IMG/VR virus record: IMGVR_UViG_3300038548_000276
Span: 1 to 32,533 of that record
Direction: 5' to 3' (one strand)
From: a virus
Length of the DNA: 32,533 nucleotides
Shown here one piece after another: positions 3,979 to 30,861 of this stretch. The notes under the pieces were generated by a model. It saw only the letters and a list, made by a program, of their open reading frames with translations, did not search any database and was not told the DNA's origin. The first letter of the stretch is position 1; each line of letters opens with the position of its first letter. The translations under genes were made by a program, and so were the position numbers.

Positions 3979-4803
3979 ATGGGCTTACTTACTTTACCAA
4001 AAGACTTTCATCCAGACTTCAAGGATAAATTAAAAAACCCTGTTGGACTAGTCGAAATAGATTGGTTAAATCCTCTTTCAAAAGGATTGGCTGAAGTTTA
4101 TCTTGCGGATAGTTCTGGTCGATTAGTTGGGCTATTGCATGGAGCATCCGAAAGCGTAGGGACCCAGCCTGGACACGCTAAAAGAGGTAGCTTTGTAGAT
4201 AGAAGTGAAGCGGATTCTATAGATGGAGGTAAGGACGATTGGATCCCTAAATCTGGACGTAATATGTCAATTATCCAGATATACGCGACTACTGACGGGA
4301 ACCATACTGTTATAACAAGGCGTGACGGTGGTTCAGAAAACTGGCACTTTTTCATACAAGACAGCGCAGGACAAATACAATACAGGGTAGGCGGCACTGC
4401 AAATACACTAGTAACAGGCGGATTAGATGCTTCGTGGTTTGATGGGAAAGTCCATACGATCGGTCTTTCTGTAGGAGAGTCAAGCTCAATACTATATAAA
4501 GATGGGATTCAAGAGGGTTCGGCTGGAGCAAACGGCGTGTCTTTGGAAACTTCCATAAATCTGGGGATCGGAAACAGATGGGCCGGCTATCCTACCCCCG
4601 CGTTCGGAATGGATAACGGTAATATATATGCAGTATTTCTATTTAATAGATCATTATCAGAAGCAGAGCAAAAGTCTTTACACTTTAACCCTTACCAAAT
4701 ACTAAAACCATCAATACCAGCTAGTTACTTCATACCTAGCGGTGTAGCTCCATCATTTACAATACCTGTTATAATGAATTCATACAGACAAAGAAGAGTT
4801 TAA
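3979..4803 (+). CDS. LamG/concanavalin-like lectin domain virion protein
   Basis: This 274-residue protein starts with a short proline-rich segment (MGLLTLPKDF). Its central domain (about residues 60-230) has the pattern of the laminin-G/concanavalin-A-like jelly roll: MSIIQIYATTDGNHTVITRR, WHFFIQDSAG, DGKVHTIGLSVG, SSILYKDGIQEG, INLGIGNRW, NIYAVFLFNRSLSEAEQKSL. The ending FNPYQILKPSIPASYF is typical of phage LamG proteins. Such domains bind carbohydrate or act as surface adhesins. Here it would be expected on the virion surface for host or mucus attachment, which is inference. Confidence 0.75.
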   Translation: MGLLTLPKDFHPDFKDKLKNPVGLVEIDWLNPLSKGLAEVYLADSSGRLVGLLHGASESVGTQPGHAKRGSFVDRSEADSIDGGKDDWIPKSGRNMSIIQIYATTDGNHTVITRRDGGSENWHFFIQDSAGQIQYRVGGTANTLVTGGLDASWFDGKVHTIGLSVGESSSILYKDGIQEGSAGANGVSLETSINLGIGNRWAGYPTPAFGMDNGNIYAVFLFNRSLSEAEQKSLHFNPYQILKPSIPASYFIPSGVAPSFTIPVIMNSYRQRRV

Positions 4804-4806
4804 AAA

Positions 4807-5700
4807 ATGGAACTAAGACAGTCTACATCACAGATAGTAAGGTTTGGGCCATTCCTTGACTCTACGGATGGGGTGACGCCTGAAACAGGTTTAACCATAA
4901 CTCAGGCTGATATGCAGTTATCCAAAGATGGCGGCGCTTTTGCTCAAAAGAACGCGGCTGGAAACGCCACGCATGATATAGATGGATATTATACAACAAC
5001 TTTTAATACTACAGATTCCGACACGACTGCAATTTTAAAGCTTAACGTTACCGTGGCGGGCGCTCTCCCCGTTTGGGATAATTTTGATGTTGTAACTCAA
5101 TCTTATTATGACGCAAAATATACTGGAACATTCAATAATCTAGGTGGTGTAGCTCAATCAGCCGATAACGACACTAAGATTTCAGCAATACCAACTACAG
5201 CAATGAGGGGGACAGATTCGGCTAACACAGTTGTGCCTCCATCAGTCTCACAATTTAACGCTAGAACATTGCCATCAGCCAGCTATTTTGATTTTACATC
5301 AGACGCCGTTCAAGTAGGCACCAATAATGACAAGACCGGTTACTCAATATTAGGAACTTTGAACACATTAGATGATTTAGAAAACCTAGCTCAGACTGAC
5401 GTTGTTACATCAGGGCCAATCCAGACAGCAGTAGGGGTAGTCGTTAACGTTGGGATAGTTCAAAATCTAAACACCATTGATGATGGTGCTATAAAAGCAA
5501 CTACTATTGCAGCAAATGCATTAGACGGTAAAGGTGATTGGAATATTGGTAAAACAGGTTATAGCTTAACCCAAACATTCCCTACAAACTTTGCAGCGCA
5601 AGTAATTTCTGGAGCTGGTGACGTTAATTCTGATGTAAACAAGATTAATGGCGTGGTTATCACTGGAAATGGCGATTCGGCACCATTTGATGTCGTCTAA
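4807..5700 (+). CDS. putative phage structural protein paired with the LamG protein
   Basis: This 297-residue protein begins three bases after the LamG gene. The N-terminal 95 residues (MELRQSTSQIVRFGPFLDS, then LTITQADMQLSKDGGAFAQK, then GYYTTTFNTTDSDTTAILKL) look like an immunoglobulin-like beta domain. I associate that domain with phage proteins encoded beside LamG-type adhesins. The remainder is low-complexity, threonine- and asparagine-rich, with repeated turn-forming segments. A fibre or surface component is likely. The reading frame ends in tandem stops (TAATGA) immediately before the inserted HNH gene. Confidence 0.6.
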   Translation: MELRQSTSQIVRFGPFLDSTDGVTPETGLTITQADMQLSKDGGAFAQKNAAGNATHDIDGYYTTTFNTTDSDTTAILKLNVTVAGALPVWDNFDVVTQSYYDAKYTGTFNNLGGVAQSADNDTKISAIPTTAMRGTDSANTVVPPSVSQFNARTLPSASYFDFTSDAVQVGTNNDKTGYSILGTLNTLDDLENLAQTDVVTSGPIQTAVGVVVNVGIVQNLNTIDDGAIKATTIAANALDGKGDWNIGKTGYSLTQTFPTNFAAQVISGAGDVNSDVNKINGVVITGNGDSAPFDVV

Positions 5701-5710
5701 TGAGCTTGTC

Positions 5711-6352
5711 ATGAGTAAATCAACCAATTTAAAAGGCCAGTCATTTGGTAGGTGGATTGTTTTGAGTGAAGATAACTCAAAAAGTGGCGGCAAATTAAAA
5801 ATGCTTTGTGGGTGCGTTTGCGGAGTGAAAAAATTAGTGCGCGCGGATCATTTGAGGTCCGGGGGATCTAGGTCGTGTGGATGCCTTAACTTAGAATCAA
5901 TAAAAGAAAGGAGCACTTCGCATGGATTGTCTGGAACTCCAGAGTATAAGATATGGTCAAAAATGAAAACAAGATGCCTTAATAAAAACAATGACAAATA
6001 TCACAGGTACGGCGGGAGAGGTATATCAGTGTGTGATAAATGGTTATCTTCCGTTGAGGCTTTTGTTGATGATATGGGGGAAAGGCCATCCATAAGGCAC
6101 TCAATAGACAGAATTAACAACAACGGAAATTACGAGCCTAAAAATTGCCGATGGGCAACGCACACGCAACAAATGAGAAATAGAAACTTTAATACTGTAA
6201 CTCACGATATTGCATCAATAATTAAAACGTATCTAAAATACAACCTACACACGCAAAAAGAAATAGCAGAGATATGCGGGGTTAGCAAATACTCTGTGTC
6301 AGATATAAAAAGAGGAAAAAGTTGGGGTGACGTATCATGTCTGCCGGTATAG
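5711..6352 (+). CDS. free-standing HNH homing-type endonuclease with HTH tail
   Basis: The 213-residue product has a GQSFGRWIVLSE start, then a zinc-ribbon-like cluster (C33, C35, C37, C56, C58). Next is the segment TPEYKIWSKMKTRCLNKNN, then YGGRGISVCDKW, and the HNH-like core H130-SIDRINN with N145-CRWAT. The C terminus (about 165-205) contains a helix-turn-helix (TQKEIAEICGVSKYSVSDI) likely to contact DNA. The start at 5711 was chosen because upstream codons overlap the preceding gene. These proteins are selfish nicking or cleaving nucleases that spread between phages. It sits between two apparently structural genes without an intron, so it looks like an insertion into an intergenic site. 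Confidence 0.82.
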   Translation: MSKSTNLKGQSFGRWIVLSEDNSKSGGKLKMLCGCVCGVKKLVRADHLRSGGSRSCGCLNLESIKERSTSHGLSGTPEYKIWSKMKTRCLNKNNDKYHRYGGRGISVCDKWLSSVEAFVDDMGERPSIRHSIDRINNNGNYEPKNCRWATHTQQMRNRNFNTVTHDIASIIKTYLKYNLHTQKEIAEICGVSKYSVSDIKRGKSWGDVSCLPV

Positions 6353-6752: not shown

Positions 6753-7238
6753 ATGCCAGCAAAAAAAACATCAGGGTCTCTCACTAAAGAAACCAGAAAG
6801 GAAATGCCCCCTAGAGGGAAGGCTAAAAAAACATTGATGTTAGATGCTATAAAAGCTGTCTGTGGAAATGAGAAAGAGTTTCTAGAGAAGGTAGTATCTA
6901 TTGGTCTTGGTGGGTGGACTCAGCCAGAACAGAAAGAAGATGAGCCGCCAGTTGATCCAGTATTTCATCCATCTAATCCAGCGTTATTAACTCTAATATT
7001 AAATCGAATTGAACCACCCCTAAAAGCTATCTCCCCAAATGTTGAGTTTACTTTCAGGAGTGACGCCAAACCTCATGAGCAAGCCAGTGACGTTATGTCG
7101 GCTATAGCTAACGGAGAAATACCCGCAGATATAGGGCAAATTTTTATAAATAGCATTTCATCAATGTTAAAAATCCAAGAGCTAACAGATTTCGAGGAAA
7201 GATTAAAGGCGATCGAAGATGCTAGCCAGCAGGATTAG
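6753..7238 (+). CDS. putative small terminase subunit (TerS)
   Basis: The 161-residue protein lies directly upstream of TerL and overlaps it by 20 bases, the usual TerS position. It has a basic N terminus (MPAKKTSGSLTKETRKE, PPRGKAKKTLMLDAIKAVCG), a middle helical core with LLTLILNRIEPPLKAI, and a C-terminal helical part (FINSISSMLKIQELTDFEERLKAIED). The size is close to P22 gp3 (162 residues). TerS oligomers recognise the packaging site on the genome and hand DNA to TerL. The ATG at 6753 was preferred over a GTG at 6732. Neither has a strong ribosome binding site. The assignment rests mainly on position and size. Confidence 0.65.
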   Translation: MPAKKTSGSLTKETRKEMPPRGKAKKTLMLDAIKAVCGNEKEFLEKVVSIGLGGWTQPEQKEDEPPVDPVFHPSNPALLTLILNRIEPPLKAISPNVEFTFRSDAKPHEQASDVMSAIANGEIPADIGQIFINSISSMLKIQELTDFEERLKAIEDASQQD

Positions 7239-8889
7239 CCGACTATCAAAATTAGAAGATGGTGTCTTATTTGCTACCGGTAAATTCAAATCTACAGTTA
7301 TAGGCTTTGTTAGCCCGATCACTAAAGAGCTTGTTAGTAGCTACCACTTAGTTAACAAGGCTTGGATAGCAACAATTAAAGAACCCACAGTATTATTCCC
7401 CGAAGCAGTAAAGCAGATGTTCTTAAAGCCTAAAAGATTTATGGCTTTAATTGGTGGTCGAGGTTCAGCTAAAACTCTTGTGAAAGGCGATCATGGTTTA
7501 ATCGGAATGCATGATTTAGGAAGGAATCTAATGTGTATTCGAGAGTTTCAATCTTCAATTGCTGATAGCGTCCATGCGGTCCTAAGTGATGAGATCAAAA
7601 GATTAGAGCTTGATAATTCTGACATAACAGAAAGAACCGTTAAGTTTACTCATAATAATGCTATGGCTCGATTTATGGGCCTTAGCAGGAATCCTGACTC
7701 AGTTAAGTCTGCATTCGGATTTCTTGACTGGTGGATAGAAGAGGCGCAGTTTTTAAGCGAGAAGTCACTAAGGACATTGACGCCAACAGCCAGAAAAAAA
7801 CCTATGAAGGGCTTACCGGGAAGACAAAAAGAATTAAATGTCAATGAGATTAATATGGACGATGTGCAAATGGTGTTTTGTGCCAACCCTGCATCAAGCG
7901 AAGACCCGTTCAGTAAAAGATTTATAGTTCCTTTTCAAGCCGAGTTAGACGCTAATGGTATCTATGAAGATGATATGCATCTGATAATAAAAATGAATTG
8001 GGATCAGAACCCCTGGTTTTTAGATTCAGGGCTTAACCAAGAGAGGTTATTTGATTTGGAAAATTTACCTCGTTCAACCTATGACTGGGTATGGGAGGGT
8101 GGCTTTAATGATGACATTGAAAATGGATTAATTAAGCCGGAATGGTTTGACGCCTGTATTGATGCTCATTTGAAGTTAGGGTTTAAATCTATTGGCGTTA
8201 CAAAGGTAACTCATGACCCTTCTGATATTGGTGGCGACCCAAAAGCTACAGTTATTAGAAAAGGAAATGTTATCACTAACGTTATCCAAAGAACTGATTT
8301 AGATGTCAATGAAGGTAGTGATTGGGCTTTAGGTGTGGCAATTAATGAAAATGCTGACCACTATGAGTGGGATGTGGGTGGATTAGGGTTAACTCTTAAG
8401 AAAGATGTTAACGCAGCTTTGGCAGGAAAGAGGGTTGGTGTCCACCAATTTAATGGAGCCTCTAAAGTTGACCATCCTAACGCTATTTATGAACCGTCAG
8501 GAGCAACCAACACGCGTAAACAAATGACCTGGGATATGGTCTGTTATAATCTCAGGGCTCAATGTTATCTTAAAACAAGGGATAGGATTTACAGAACGTA
8601 TAAAGCAATCACTGACAACGTAATGACCGACCCAGATACGCTAATTTCATTCAGCTCTGATTGTGAAAACCTAACAACACTAAGGTCTGAATTATGTAGA
8701 ATGCCAATCAAACCTAGAAGTGATGGAAGGTTCGAGTTATATACTAAGAAAGAAATGAGAGAAAAATTTAAGGTCCGCTCTCCTAACTGCTCGGACGGCT
8801 TAATGATGTCAGAAAGAATTCATGGTATTATTGACCAGACAATGAAAGCGAGAAGGCCAAAACCAATGAAACCAATGGGACGTAGATAA
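7219..8889 (+). CDS. terminase large subunit (TerL)
   Basis: This 556-residue packaging motor carries an ATPase domain with a Walker A motif GGRGSAKT (79-86), a Walker B-like LDWWIEEAQ (169-177, acidic pair E174/E175) and a coupling motif CANPAS (221-226). The C-terminal nuclease domain has acidic residues at D333 (VTHDPSDIGGD), D385 in HYEWDVGGLG, and D526 in SPNCSDGLMM, consistent with the RNase H-like two-metal active site. TerL cuts concatemeric DNA and pumps it into the prohead through the portal. The gene overlaps TerS by 20 bases and abuts the portal gene. The sequence resembles headful-packaging terminases, but that needs phylogeny. Confidence 0.93.
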   Translation: MLASRISRLSKLEDGVLFATGKFKSTVIGFVSPITKELVSSYHLVNKAWIATIKEPTVLFPEAVKQMFLKPKRFMALIGGRGSAKTLVKGDHGLIGMHDLGRNLMCIREFQSSIADSVHAVLSDEIKRLELDNSDITERTVKFTHNNAMARFMGLSRNPDSVKSAFGFLDWWIEEAQFLSEKSLRTLTPTARKKPMKGLPGRQKELNVNEINMDDVQMVFCANPASSEDPFSKRFIVPFQAELDANGIYEDDMHLIIKMNWDQNPWFLDSGLNQERLFDLENLPRSTYDWVWEGGFNDDIENGLIKPEWFDACIDAHLKLGFKSIGVTKVTHDPSDIGGDPKATVIRKGNVITNVIQRTDLDVNEGSDWALGVAINENADHYEWDVGGLGLTLKKDVNAALAGKRVGVHQFNGASKVDHPNAIYEPSGATNTRKQMTWDMVCYNLRAQCYLKTRDRIYRTYKAITDNVMTDPDTLISFSSDCENLTTLRSELCRMPIKPRSDGRFELYTKKEMREKFKVRSPNCSDGLMMSERIHGIIDQTMKARRPKPMKPMGRR

Positions 8890-27440: not shown

Positions 27441-27763
27441 TTCTCATTACTCGGAAATATAACGCTAACGCCATGAGTTGATGAAATGTGACGATTAATC
27501 ACCTCGTAAACCTCGCTAACTTGCGTTGTATTGAGTTTTGTCGTTGAATCTATGTCAAACATAGCCTTTTGAACTCCCTTCCATATAAGCTCTTTAACGA
27601 GACTTTCAGACCACGGTATATCAAAGTCCTGCCTTAATGTTTTCTTGACGTCCAACCCTGCGTTATTGAGCGACTCAGCCAACATTGAAAAATACTTATG
27701 AATGGCCGCGTTTTGGGTTAATGTTCTAACTGGTTTATCTTCTGGCGTTGAGTAGCTACCCAT
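27437..27763 (-). CDS. NinB-like/recombination-associated protein
   Basis: This 108-residue protein begins MGSYSTPEDKPVRTLTQNAA and continues IHKYFSMLAESLNNAGLDVK and WSESLVKELIWKGVQKAM. It ends STHGVSVIFPSNEK. The RTLTQNAAIHKYF segment resembles the RSLDQNRKLW region of NinB/Orf, the lambda recombination mediator, and its neighbours include NinG. The family of short phage proteins with this start is widespread. The NinB relationship is uncertain. The ATG at 27763 was chosen over an in-frame TTG at 27772. It overlaps the HNH stop by eight bases. Confidence 0.5.
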   Translation of the reverse strand: MGSYSTPEDKPVRTLTQNAAIHKYFSMLAESLNNAGLDVKKTLRQDFDIPWSESLVKELIWKGVQKAMFDIDSTTKLNTTQVSEVYEVINRHISSTHGVSVIFPSNEK

Positions 27764-28244
27764 GATTAGCAAAACCCTTATGTATAAGCGATCTTCTTTC
27801 TCTAACGGCTTTCTCTGCGCACTTTATGGAGTCAAATAGACCTATATAAATCTTTTTTCCGTTAACTTGTATTTGAGCAAGCCATTTTTTGCTTGACCTA
27901 GAGAAGCTAACGCCTTTAATTCCTGACTTGTTATCTTTTCTGATGTTTGCGTTATGGCTATTTTCCGAAAGAGTGCAGACCCTTAAATTATCTATTCTGT
28001 TATTCAACTTATCTGCATCTATATGATCCAATATTGGAGGTAAATACCCATGACAATAAAGAAATATTATTCTATGGTTTTTGTATTTTTTGCCAGCTAT
28101 TTGACTTATTAAATAACCATTAGCATCTACATACCCAGCGGCAGCGCCTATTTTAATGCTGCAGTTTAGAGGTGCCTTCCACGTTAAATCGCCAGTCCGC
28201 TTGTCGTAATTAAACAACTCTTTAACCTGGTCTTGGGTAATCAT
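27756..28244 (-). CDS. HNH endonuclease with AP2 DNA-binding domain
   Basis: The 162-residue protein has an HNH nuclease core (H57-RIIFLYCHGYLPP, then LDHIDADKLNNRIDNLRV with H74, D76, N82, N86, and SENSHNANI). After it comes an AP2-like domain (about residues 108-150: GIKGVSFSRSSKKWLAQIQV, KIYIGLFDSIKCAEKAV). This domain order is the standard architecture of free-standing phage homing endonucleases. The start at 28244 is seven bases from an AGGAG. An alternative ATG at 28250 overlaps the upstream stop. It sits directly upstream of the NinB-like gene, as an insertion into the nin region. Confidence 0.85.
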   Translation of the reverse strand: MITQDQVKELFNYDKRTGDLTWKAPLNCSIKIGAAAGYVDANGYLISQIAGKKYKNHRIIFLYCHGYLPPILDHIDADKLNNRIDNLRVCTLSENSHNANIRKDNKSGIKGVSFSRSSKKWLAQIQVNGKKIYIGLFDSIKCAEKAVRERRSLIHKGFANHG

Positions 28245-28246
28245 AA

Positions 28247-28429
28247 TCATTCTCCTTTACCAAACAGTTCGCGCTCATTACCAATACGCTCAATAATCTC
28301 ACAGTCTTTCAATTGCGCATAGCTCATCGAAGTAAATACGCCGTCAAAATACCAGCACTCAACCTTTCGACCATTAACCAGAACAAGATACTTACATCTG
28401 CTCTCAAGAAATAAGTCTAGTTGATTCAT
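28247..28429 (-). CDS. small hypothetical protein, 60 aa
   Basis: The start at 28429 has an AAGG ribosome binding site. The longer open frame has no better site and overlaps the previous gene heavily. The product starts MNQLDLFLESRCKYLVLVNG and has a beta-rich middle (RKVECWYFDGVFTSMSYAQL), then an acidic helix (CEIIERIGNERELFGKGE). No family was recognised. The stop overlaps the first possible HNH start, suggesting coupling. Confidence 0.5.
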   Translation of the reverse strand: MNQLDLFLESRCKYLVLVNGRKVECWYFDGVFTSMSYAQLKDCEIIERIGNERELFGKGE

Positions 28430-29480: not shown

Positions 29481-29939
29481 TTAGCCTCTAACCAATCTAT
29501 GTGAATCAATCTCAATTTCACGATTTAAGGCTTCATCCCAATTACTATGAGGCCATCTTTGAGATAGTAGCGCAAAGTTACCTCTTAGAGTTTCTTCGCC
29601 TACCTGGAACTTGCTACCGCCAGCCATTGCTTTTTTCATCATATCCTTGCTTTCTTTCGACTGAGGTAAAGCTTTGTAATCAATTGATTGCTCTGCTGGC
29701 TTTTCGGTTGAGCAGAATTTTAATAGCTGATTAATCTTAGGGAAATATTCAAACTGCTCTCTGCACTTTTTGAAAGCAGTTTTAAGGGCCGATTCTGTTA
29801 GGTAACCAAGACTGTCATAATATCTCTCGGCAAATCTAAAATATAAATTCTTCCTGTCTTGATCTGAATCACCGGTAAACCGTTTGCCAGAAAATTCAAT
29901 TTCTTCATTCAGTATTTTTTGAAAGTCTTTTTTTAGCAT
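29481..29939 (-). CDS. possible helicase-loader-like replication accessory protein
   Basis: The 152-residue product overlaps the replication initiator stop (TAATG), so the two are probably translated together. Residues 15-75 (FSGKRFTGDSDQDRKNLYFR then YDSLGYLTESALKTAFKKCR and FEYFPKINQLLKFC) resemble the N-terminal domain of phage replication accessory proteins, which position a helicase or its loader. The rest is charged and ends HSNWDEALNREIEIDSHRLV. No ATPase motif is present. The assignment relies on position after the initiator gene, as lambda P follows O. Confidence 0.5.
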   Translation of the reverse strand: MLKKDFQKILNEEIEFSGKRFTGDSDQDRKNLYFRFAERYYDSLGYLTESALKTAFKKCREQFEYFPKINQLLKFCSTEKPAEQSIDYKALPQSKESKDMMKKAMAGGSKFQVGEETLRGNFALLSQRWPHSNWDEALNREIEIDSHRLVRG

Positions 29940-30568
29940 TACTTGAATTCCTCTTTCATAAAGTTATTGCTGTAAGGTTGATTAGGTGAGAATTTACTTT
30001 GCCTTTTACTCCAGCCTCTTGCTGCAGCCTTCCAGTCCTTCATAATATTTTTACCAACCTTCCAGCCGTTAGATTCATAGTAATCAAAGAATCCAGTTAC
30101 GTTTAAGCTTTCAGAATTAGAAAACATGAAAGTTTCTTCGCGGGTCGGTTTTGCAAAAACCTTTCTTTTACTCTTTTCTTTTATTGGTTTATGGTTATTG
30201 GTTATTGGTTTATGGTTAGCATTGCCTTCGCTATGCGTTCGCATTGCCTTCGCATCCCATCTAACCTTAGCTGAAAGCCTTGCCTTCTCTGACTTGTTGT
30301 TATATTTCTTAATTTGATCTGAGCACTTTTTGTGAGAGTAGCCTTTTTTTGTTAAAATAAAGAAATCATTTAACACATTTTTAAAGGCTTTTTCTTCATC
30401 ACTCGTACGTATGCAATGAGTTCGCATAAGAATCGCATTATCTTCGCATAAAGGGGACTCATTTAGATAATATGTGTCGAGTAATGATCTGTAAATACCA
30501 TGCTCTAACAAGCTTAAATGGCCTGTATCTCGACGGTAATCACCTATGTTAAATTGGTAGTAGTGCAT
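29939..30568 (-). CDS. DUF1376 replication initiation protein
   Basis: The 209-residue protein starts MHYYQFNIGDYRRDTGHLSL and continues LEHGIYRSLLDTYYLNE, the DUF1376 signature, a phage/plasmid replication-initiation winged-helix domain. A basic, asparagine-rich linker (THSEGNANHKPITNNHKPIK) follows, encoded by an iteron-like repeat. A C-terminal part ends WKVGKNIMKDWKAAARGWSK, as is typical. The ATG at 30568 was preferred over a TTG at 30586 because family members begin here and an AAGG site precedes it. It should bind origin DNA and recruit the helicase machinery. The leader and an internal repeat array are listed separately. Confidence 0.85.
   Translation of the reverse strand: MHYYQFNIGDYRRDTGHLSLLEHGIYRSLLDTYYLNESPLCEDNAILMRTHCIRTSDEEKAFKNVLNDFFILTKKGYSHKKCSDQIKKYNNKSEKARLSAKVRWDAKAMRTHSEGNANHKPITNNHKPIKEKSKRKVFAKPTREETFMFSNSESLNVTGFFDYYESNGWKVGKNIMKDWKAAARGWSKRQSKFSPNQPYSNNFMKEEFK
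30181..30255. repeat. iteron-like repeat array inside the replication initiator gene
   Basis: TTATTGGTTTATGGTTA occurs twice without error (30181-30197 and 30202-30218), 21 bases apart. GCATTGCCTTCGC occurs twice (30219-30231 and 30241-30253), 22 bases apart, and TTCGC recurs at 30227, 30238 and 30249, 11 bases apart. Spacings of whole helical turns are typical of initiator-binding iterons. A pyrimidine-rich AT tract (30149-30190) adjoins it. As in lambda, where iterons lie inside O, this is a candidate origin. Confidence 0.5.
30421..30451. repeat. paired TTCGCATAA repeats
   Basis: TTCGCATAA occurs at 30421-30429 and 30443-30451, exactly 22 bases apart, with an imperfect TCGCATT copy between. 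The same TTCGCAT core occurs at 30238 and 30249 in the main array, so it may be a further part of an origin or initiator-binding region. Confidence 0.4.
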
Positions 30569-30573
30569 ATTTG

Positions 30574-30664
30574 GCCTTTGTGTCAATTACCTTTGTTTGA
30601 GAAAAAATACGCGGGCGGCACAAAGGCAGAGGCAAGAAAAGGGATCAATCAATTCACACCCGCG
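30574..30664 (-). promoter_or_regulatory. pseudoknot-like 5' leader of the replication initiator gene
   Basis: In mRNA order: CGCGGGUG (30664-30657), GCCUUUGUG (30627-30619), CGCCCGCG (30617-30610) and CACAAAGGC (30582-30574). The first pairs with the third (eight pairs, one wobble) and the second with the fourth (nine pairs), so the two helices interleave as in a pseudoknot. The last element contains the AAGG site seven bases before the start. The first helix is nearly all G and C in an AT-rich genome. Translation control is inferred. Confidence 0.5.
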
Positions 30665-30675
30665 ATATAATTATC

Positions 30676-30861
30676 TTACTTATCACTCCCCTCTGCAAGT
30701 TTATTTTTAACAGACCAGTAATCAACATAAAACTTATCATGATTCAAGTTTCTACTAACACCTTCAGCTATCAAAATAGCCCTTCTTTCACTAGTTGGCT
30801 CACCTATCATTGTTTCTTCTCTAGAGCCTAGCTCAATGACTTTAACTTGGTATGTGATCAC
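30676..30861 (-). CDS. small hypothetical protein, 61 aa
   Basis: The start is a GTG with an AGGAG six bases upstream. The product has a beta strand start (MITYQVKVIELGSREET), then a helix (TSERRAILIAEGVSRNLNHD), then FYVDYWSVKNKLAEG. No in-frame ATG offers a better start. The small alpha/beta layout recurs in phage early genes, but no family was recognised. It lies directly before the initiator leader. Confidence 0.5.
   Translation of the reverse strand: MITYQVKVIELGSREETMIGEPTSERRAILIAEGVSRNLNHDKFYVDYWSVKNKLAEGSDK

Follow-up and report, generated by a model that had tools for sequence, protein, structure and literature searches.

An int-alpA-like leader upstream of a phage DUF1376 gene: candidate same-strand antisense control of a putative replication initiator

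Introduction

In the viral record IMGVR_UViG_3300038548_000276, of which we analyzed the whole stretch of 32,533 nucleotides (hereafter the window), the leader of a DUF1376 gene contains two interleaved stems, the second of which overlaps the ribosome-binding site. This locus raises the question of whether the stems constitute a genuine control of initiator translation and, if so, whether this control is peculiar to one phage or belongs to a more general design. A pseudoknot combined with antisense control is known for the replication initiator repZ/repA of IncI/IncB plasmids, in which the pseudoknot is considered an activator of translation and the opposite strand encodes the antisense RNA. 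A previous sequence-only reading of the window had cited this plasmid leader as a precedent; in the window, by contrast, the pairing covers the ribosome-binding site.

Results

The DUF1376 leader of the window

Both stems are found on the minus strand where the sequence-only reading had located them, with 8 bp (one G-U) between A and A' and 9 Watson-Crick bp between B and B' (table 1). The order A-B-A'-B' and the single base separating B from A' were correctly described, and the AAGG within B' ends 6 nt upstream of the ATG (30568), within a base of the seven-base spacing given earlier. Three other parts had been overlooked: ACAAAGG (R1), which repeats the core of B' and is complementary to the same loop B; a U-run, UAUUUUUU, adjoining A'; and a GATAAT box. 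The notion of a pseudoknot-like switch is thus retained for its two helices and for the position of B' (hereafter R2) over the ribosome-binding site, but not as a lone pseudoknot, since B is complementary to R1 as well as to R2, and since most relatives present B as a hairpin loop, that of P3, within a P1-P2-P3 junction of which stem A is the P1.

Table 1. Features of the DUF1376 leader in the window and of the gene that follows it.
Feature	Position	Strand	Evidence or remark
-10-like box, GATAAT	30670-30675	-	Ends 5 nt before stem A; L001 counterpart TATAAT
P1, 5' strand (stem A), CGCGGGTG	30657-30664	-	Compensatory changes in L001
P2-corresponding region, contains GATTGATCCC	30631-30656	-	Putative homology
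Antisense loop B, GCCTTTGTG	30619-30627	-	9 Watson-Crick bp with R2, 7 with R1
P1, 3' strand (stem A'), CGCCCGCG	30610-30617	-	Compensatory changes in L001
Terminator-like U-run, UAUUUUUUC	30601-30609	-	Directly 3' of P1
R1, first target, ACAAAGG	30590-30596	-	Complementary to B; swap and sister-pair tests
R2, second target (B'), CACAAAGGC, holds the AAGG ribosome-binding site	30574-30582	-	Swap and sister-pair tests
DUF1376 gene, 209 aa, putative replication initiator/primosomal protein	29939-30568	-	PF07120, E 4.3e-25; PHROG primosomal proteins

Taken alone, the two-stem observation is suggestive. Stems of at least the observed length recur in the same order in 13 of 5,000 dinucleotide-preserving shuffles of the 107-nt leader, 10 of which place B' within the last 25 nt, and the stability of the leader folded without pseudoknots is ordinary (z = 0.30). 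It is therefore the comparison with relatives, not the window by itself, that makes the case for more than chance. According to fold predictions, a nested structure without P1 reaches -21.5 kcal/mol and the pseudoknot fold -27.6 kcal/mol before penalty, the two being about equal once the penalty is applied, so that P1 and the B:R2 pairing may compete.

Compensatory changes in the nearest relative

The nearest relative, L001, encodes a DUF1376 protein 88% identical over the part available. Its P1 reads CGCGGCTG/CAGCCGCG, which differs from that of the window by one G-C to C-G swap on both sides and by one G-U to A-U change, and its loop B, R1, and R2 are each one base shorter (GCC-TTGTG, AC-AAGGC, and CAC-AAGGT, respectively). 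As the alignment of relatives proposed by the sequence-only reading was meant to reveal, both helices are maintained in L001 by compensatory change; when the pairings of the window and of L001 are compared with the crossed ones, own pairing is better by 8.5 kcal/mol summed, for R1 and for R2 each. An exact search of viral contigs for the 17-base P2 motif GAATTGATTGATCCCTT returned, beyond the contig of L001, only three sites, with no visible leader structure, and the motif by itself therefore proves little.

A plan shared by DUF1376 leaders

Further DUF1376 leaders have a common plan, made of a P1 starting with CGGCTAG, a P2 hairpin, GAAAAG, a P3 hairpin, CCTGCCG, a U-rich linker, and two downstream copies complementary to the P3 loop, the second of which precedes the ATG. 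R1 lies 5-17 nt from P1 across relatives and R2 directly before the start codon in nearly every case, with R2 helices that are short (3-5 bp) in some relatives. Recurring P2 loops include GGATTGATCCCC, GAAGTCATGAGC, and GGTAGCTCC among others, and the GATTGATCCC of the P2 region of the window is also the P2 loop of the int-alpA-like leaders L016, L070, L284, L362, L366, and L368. The same plan is also found upstream of some HNH genes and island genes. The design is not peculiar to this phage: it is common upstream of phage DUF1376 genes, recurs in dozens of other phages and in bacterial genomic islands, and probably represents a widespread control of expression.

An alignment of 31 sequences, with 90% of cells paired, shows covariation of all three helices, P1, P2, and P3 (0.649 vs 0.176 when shuffled), and within the DUF1376 set covariation is strong for P2 and P3 and weak for the outer half of P1, both alignments being biased to some degree towards structure, the DUF1376 one because it was fitted to the model. 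The 24 nt preceding P1 contain a match to TATAAT at five or more of six positions in 13 of 20 nonredundant DUF1376 leaders, against 0-1 of 20 in other windows, which are less AT-rich than this stretch; most island copies have no clear -10 box. Likewise, a U-rich tract follows P1 in 17 of the 20 DUF1376 leaders, against 1 in control windows, and in 14 of 35 leaders of other genes. The -10-like box and the U-rich tract fit a short terminated RNA, and the missing U-run in the leader of L002 implies that termination would not be universal.

The P2 loops of int-alpA-like leaders are drawn from a small number of interchangeable types. Several of these have at their core four bases that are self-complementary (GATC, AGCT, CATG, AATT), through which one copy of the RNA could pair with another.

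Loops match their own targets

If loop B and its targets are functional partners, each loop should fit its own leader better than those of others. Pyrimidine loops fit purine-rich ribosome-binding sites in general, which is accounted for by exchanging loops between leaders; in a first set of 23 leaders, none of 100,000 permutations reached the observed fit. Among 59 nonredundant leaders, own pairing energy at R1 was -9.7 against -6.8 when permuted (z -11.1; 0 of 20,000 permutations), and that within the last 20 nt before the start codon (R2) -12.3 against -9.7 (z -8.0; 0 of 20,000), a result that holds separately in 24 DUF1376 leaders and in 35 leaders of other genes. An effect of relatedness is guarded against by a sister-pair test on 42 independent pairs with a similar scaffold and a different loop, in which own pairing was better in 32 pairs versus 9 at R1 (p 0.0002) and in 29 versus 11 at R2 (p 0.003). 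This test replaced a fixed-register count for R1 (14 compensatory, 59 broken), which is weak because indels separate the leaders.

The loop thus shows specific complementarity to the start region of the following gene, as a same-strand antisense leader RNA would. The earlier view that B' covers the ribosome-binding site is supported, and across relatives changes in the loop strand go together with changes in the site preceding the start codon. Near-identical scaffolds carry differing loops with matching targets (e.g., L029, L037, L049, and L060), as in specificity systems.

Relationship to the int-alpA family

Most RNAs of the shared plan resemble Rfam int-alpA (RF02996; gathering cut-off 35.8 bits), a family reportedly described by Weinberg et al. 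in 2017. In an Rfam search of eight loci, five leaders were named int-alpA, just below the cut-off; of 26 related phage records, six contain one or more RF02996 matches above it, five of them at the DUF1376 leader (L024, L034, L037, L060, and L061). The window has no Rfam match at the gathering threshold, only noise at E 10, and no RF02996 match up to E 10 in 30400-30800. Covariance models in Rfam cannot hold pseudoknots, and a printed structure line therefore does not exclude pseudoknot annotation elsewhere in that database.

Search model R1 left the window leader unmatched except at noise level. Search model R2, built from DUF1376 leaders, scored L036 at 42 bits, L054 at 25.8, L011 at 25.6, L002 at 19.0, L001 at 10.7, and L020 at 8.7, each at the leader, and the window at 6.6 bits at 30601-30666, in the right place; the scores of L001, L020, and the window are noise level if taken alone, their positions being correct. 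By reading, the window leader lacks the CUAG...GAAAAG core and the P3 hairpin that most relatives possess, and its B adjoins P1, unlike in int-alpA; it has in common with this family a closing stem P1 with a U-run after it. We conclude that the window leader is int-alpA-like by plan, and probably by descent too, but not a member by score.

Among the papers searched, one mentions int-alpA, as a genome match, and none links DUF1376 to an RNA motif. In named phages with DUF1376 genes (Vibrio phages Seahorse, 1.003.O, vB_VaM_H2, and 234P9; Methylophilaceae phage P19250A), no int-alpA core was seen in the leaders inspected.

Discussion

A candidate same-strand antisense leader RNA

The comparison of sequences speaks for the helices, for a pair of targets overlapping the start region, and for the promoter-like and U-rich flanks; repression, termination, action in trans, and a role for R1 are what we infer beyond them. 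The reading that we favor, with some confidence, is that of a same-strand antisense leader RNA repressing translation of the initiator in cis and, in the form of a short terminated transcript, probably in trans as well. Transcription would probably start at the first bases of P1, which would close a domain displaying loop B, itself complementary to R2 at the ribosome-binding site and to R1, a near copy located some 10-13 nt beyond P1. Repression is suggested by the position of R2 over the ribosome-binding site: B:R2 pairing would block the ribosome and the initiator would not be made. In the full-length mRNA, this pairing would form the cis pseudoknot recognized by the sequence-only reading. 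The U-run after P1 would probably end a share of the transcripts, yielding an RNA of ~65 nt that contains B, mostly unpaired according to fold prediction, and neither target. This short RNA may act in trans on read-through mRNAs by binding their R1 and R2, as the C4 RNA of phage P1, the P4 CI RNA, and IsrK do with their own targets, R1 acting as a decoy, a second landing site, or a termination signal. Such a trans-acting form is made likely by the promoter-like box, the U-run, and the loops that vary on a fixed scaffold together with their targets.

The closest known RNAs are not the IncI/IncB RepZ leader cited earlier, but int-alpA, C4, P4 CI, and IsrK-type same-strand phage RNAs. With int-alpA, the likeness consists of a P1 enclosing two hairpins, a U-run after P1, and a location before a gene, and the present analysis found that the int-alpA P3 loop is itself complementary to a pair of sites further downstream, of which the second lies at the ribosome-binding site. 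The C4 RNA of phages P1 and P7 (RF01695) is a same-strand antisense RNA whose loops pair over the ribosome-binding site of its target (PMC5320573), as proposed here, but with another scaffold and another target gene. As a family assignment, C4 was rejected, with no match at E 10 in any of the 26 related phages and none in the window. P4 CI and Gifsy-1 IsrK are short phage RNAs from the leader of the operon that they control (PMC4825925). The former also has two target sites (PMC4825925), but these flank the RNA whereas both lie downstream here; the latter exists in short and read-through forms (PMC4825925) and activates translation via a small upstream ORF, unlike the repression proposed here.

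Among the alternatives, a pure cis switch would dispense with any trans RNA: the pseudoknot would exist in the mRNA only, and its opening or closing would depend on a ligand, on a protein, which might be DUF1376 itself, or on the ribosome, R1 and R2 being alternative partners of B. The limited distance between R1 and P1 is what a cis fold would need, and GAAAAG, CUAG, and a few P2 loops are strongly conserved, as binding pockets are; yet a ligand switch would not require loops that diversify on an unchanged scaffold with matching targets, and the window copy has neither the conserved GAAAAG nor P3, which leads us to regard this explanation as rather unlikely. Still less probable in our view is a control of transcription resembling P4 immunity, where B:R1 and B:R2 would cause premature termination or processing instead of blocking the ribosome. 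One antisense loop with two targets does recall seqA and seqC of P4 (PMC4825925), and a U-run follows P1, but the flanking arrangement of the P4 targets contrasts with the two downstream sites here and with an R2 lying almost always just before the start codon. Finally, chance complementarity or an ordinary terminator before the gene, to which the 13 matching shuffles and the unexceptional single-copy fold lend themselves, is very improbable in view of the swap and sister-pair tests, the covariation of P1, P2, and P3, and the compensatory changes in L001.

If the antisense reading that we favor is true, int-alpA, so far a candidate RNA family, would have a testable function, and phages would have a common way to restrain their replication initiator. 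It predicts that control is kept when loop and targets are changed together and lost when one is changed alone.

Distribution and possible specificity groups

Of the 369 genomes sampled from the class to which a Pseudomonas belongs, 39 (about a tenth) contain typical int-alpA RNAs, as do 23 of 151 genomes of one family, and similar cores occur in 158 of 5,426 Escherichia coli genomes. In E. coli strain D5, the int-alpA RNA is bordered on one side by an integrase and on the other by a hypothetical protein, after which comes a helix-turn-helix regulator; isrK and C4 RNAs are present in the same element. One E. coli island, L383, combines int-alpA, isrK, C4, and c4-a1b1 RNAs (3995-4061 and 7052-7253).

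In two phages, L082 and L085, an int-alpA RNA directly precedes an HNH endonuclease gene (minus strand, 1501-1566 in each) and another precedes DUF1376, and the RNA may thus move as a cassette. The loop core of the HNH copy of L085, TTCATCACC, is identical to that of the DUF1376 leader of another phage, L079. The window contains two HNH endonuclease genes, at 5648-6352 (+) and 27756-28250 (-), and a search with model R1 detected no int-alpA RNA upstream of them.

It is tempting, although we advance this tentatively and with less confidence than the antisense mechanism, to consider int-alpA-type RNAs as a specificity system, in which a fixed scaffold with a fast-changing loop and two target copies would stand in front of genes for replication initiators, of HNH endonuclease genes, and of island genes. 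Mutual silencing of the target gene in trans would be confined to phages and islands that share a loop, giving rise to immunity or incompatibility groups. Were this true, the int-alpA family would gain a function.

Other leader classes before DUF1376

A second class of leaders was seen ~130 nt before the DUF1376 start in L007, L008, L031, L045, L058, L080, L246, L248, L252, L257, L258, L261, L262, L270, L276, L285, L291, and L295; four of its loci scanned against Rfam gave no relevant match. Here TTGGC.. and its partner, ..GCCAA or GCCAG, pair with the 5' arm of a long stem lying between them, again in pseudoknot order; the stem ends in a T run, and the letters vary (e.g., GGCAG/CTGCC and GGTCG/CGACC). 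In L012 (1150-1296) and L013 (2860-3000), the leaders have a P1 of GTGTGGG/CCCACAC or TTGTGGG/CCCACAA and a P3-like hairpin, lack the CTAG core, and carry a loop (CCGTAAT, CCGATT) whose complement is found at the ribosome-binding site; they perhaps form a further branch.
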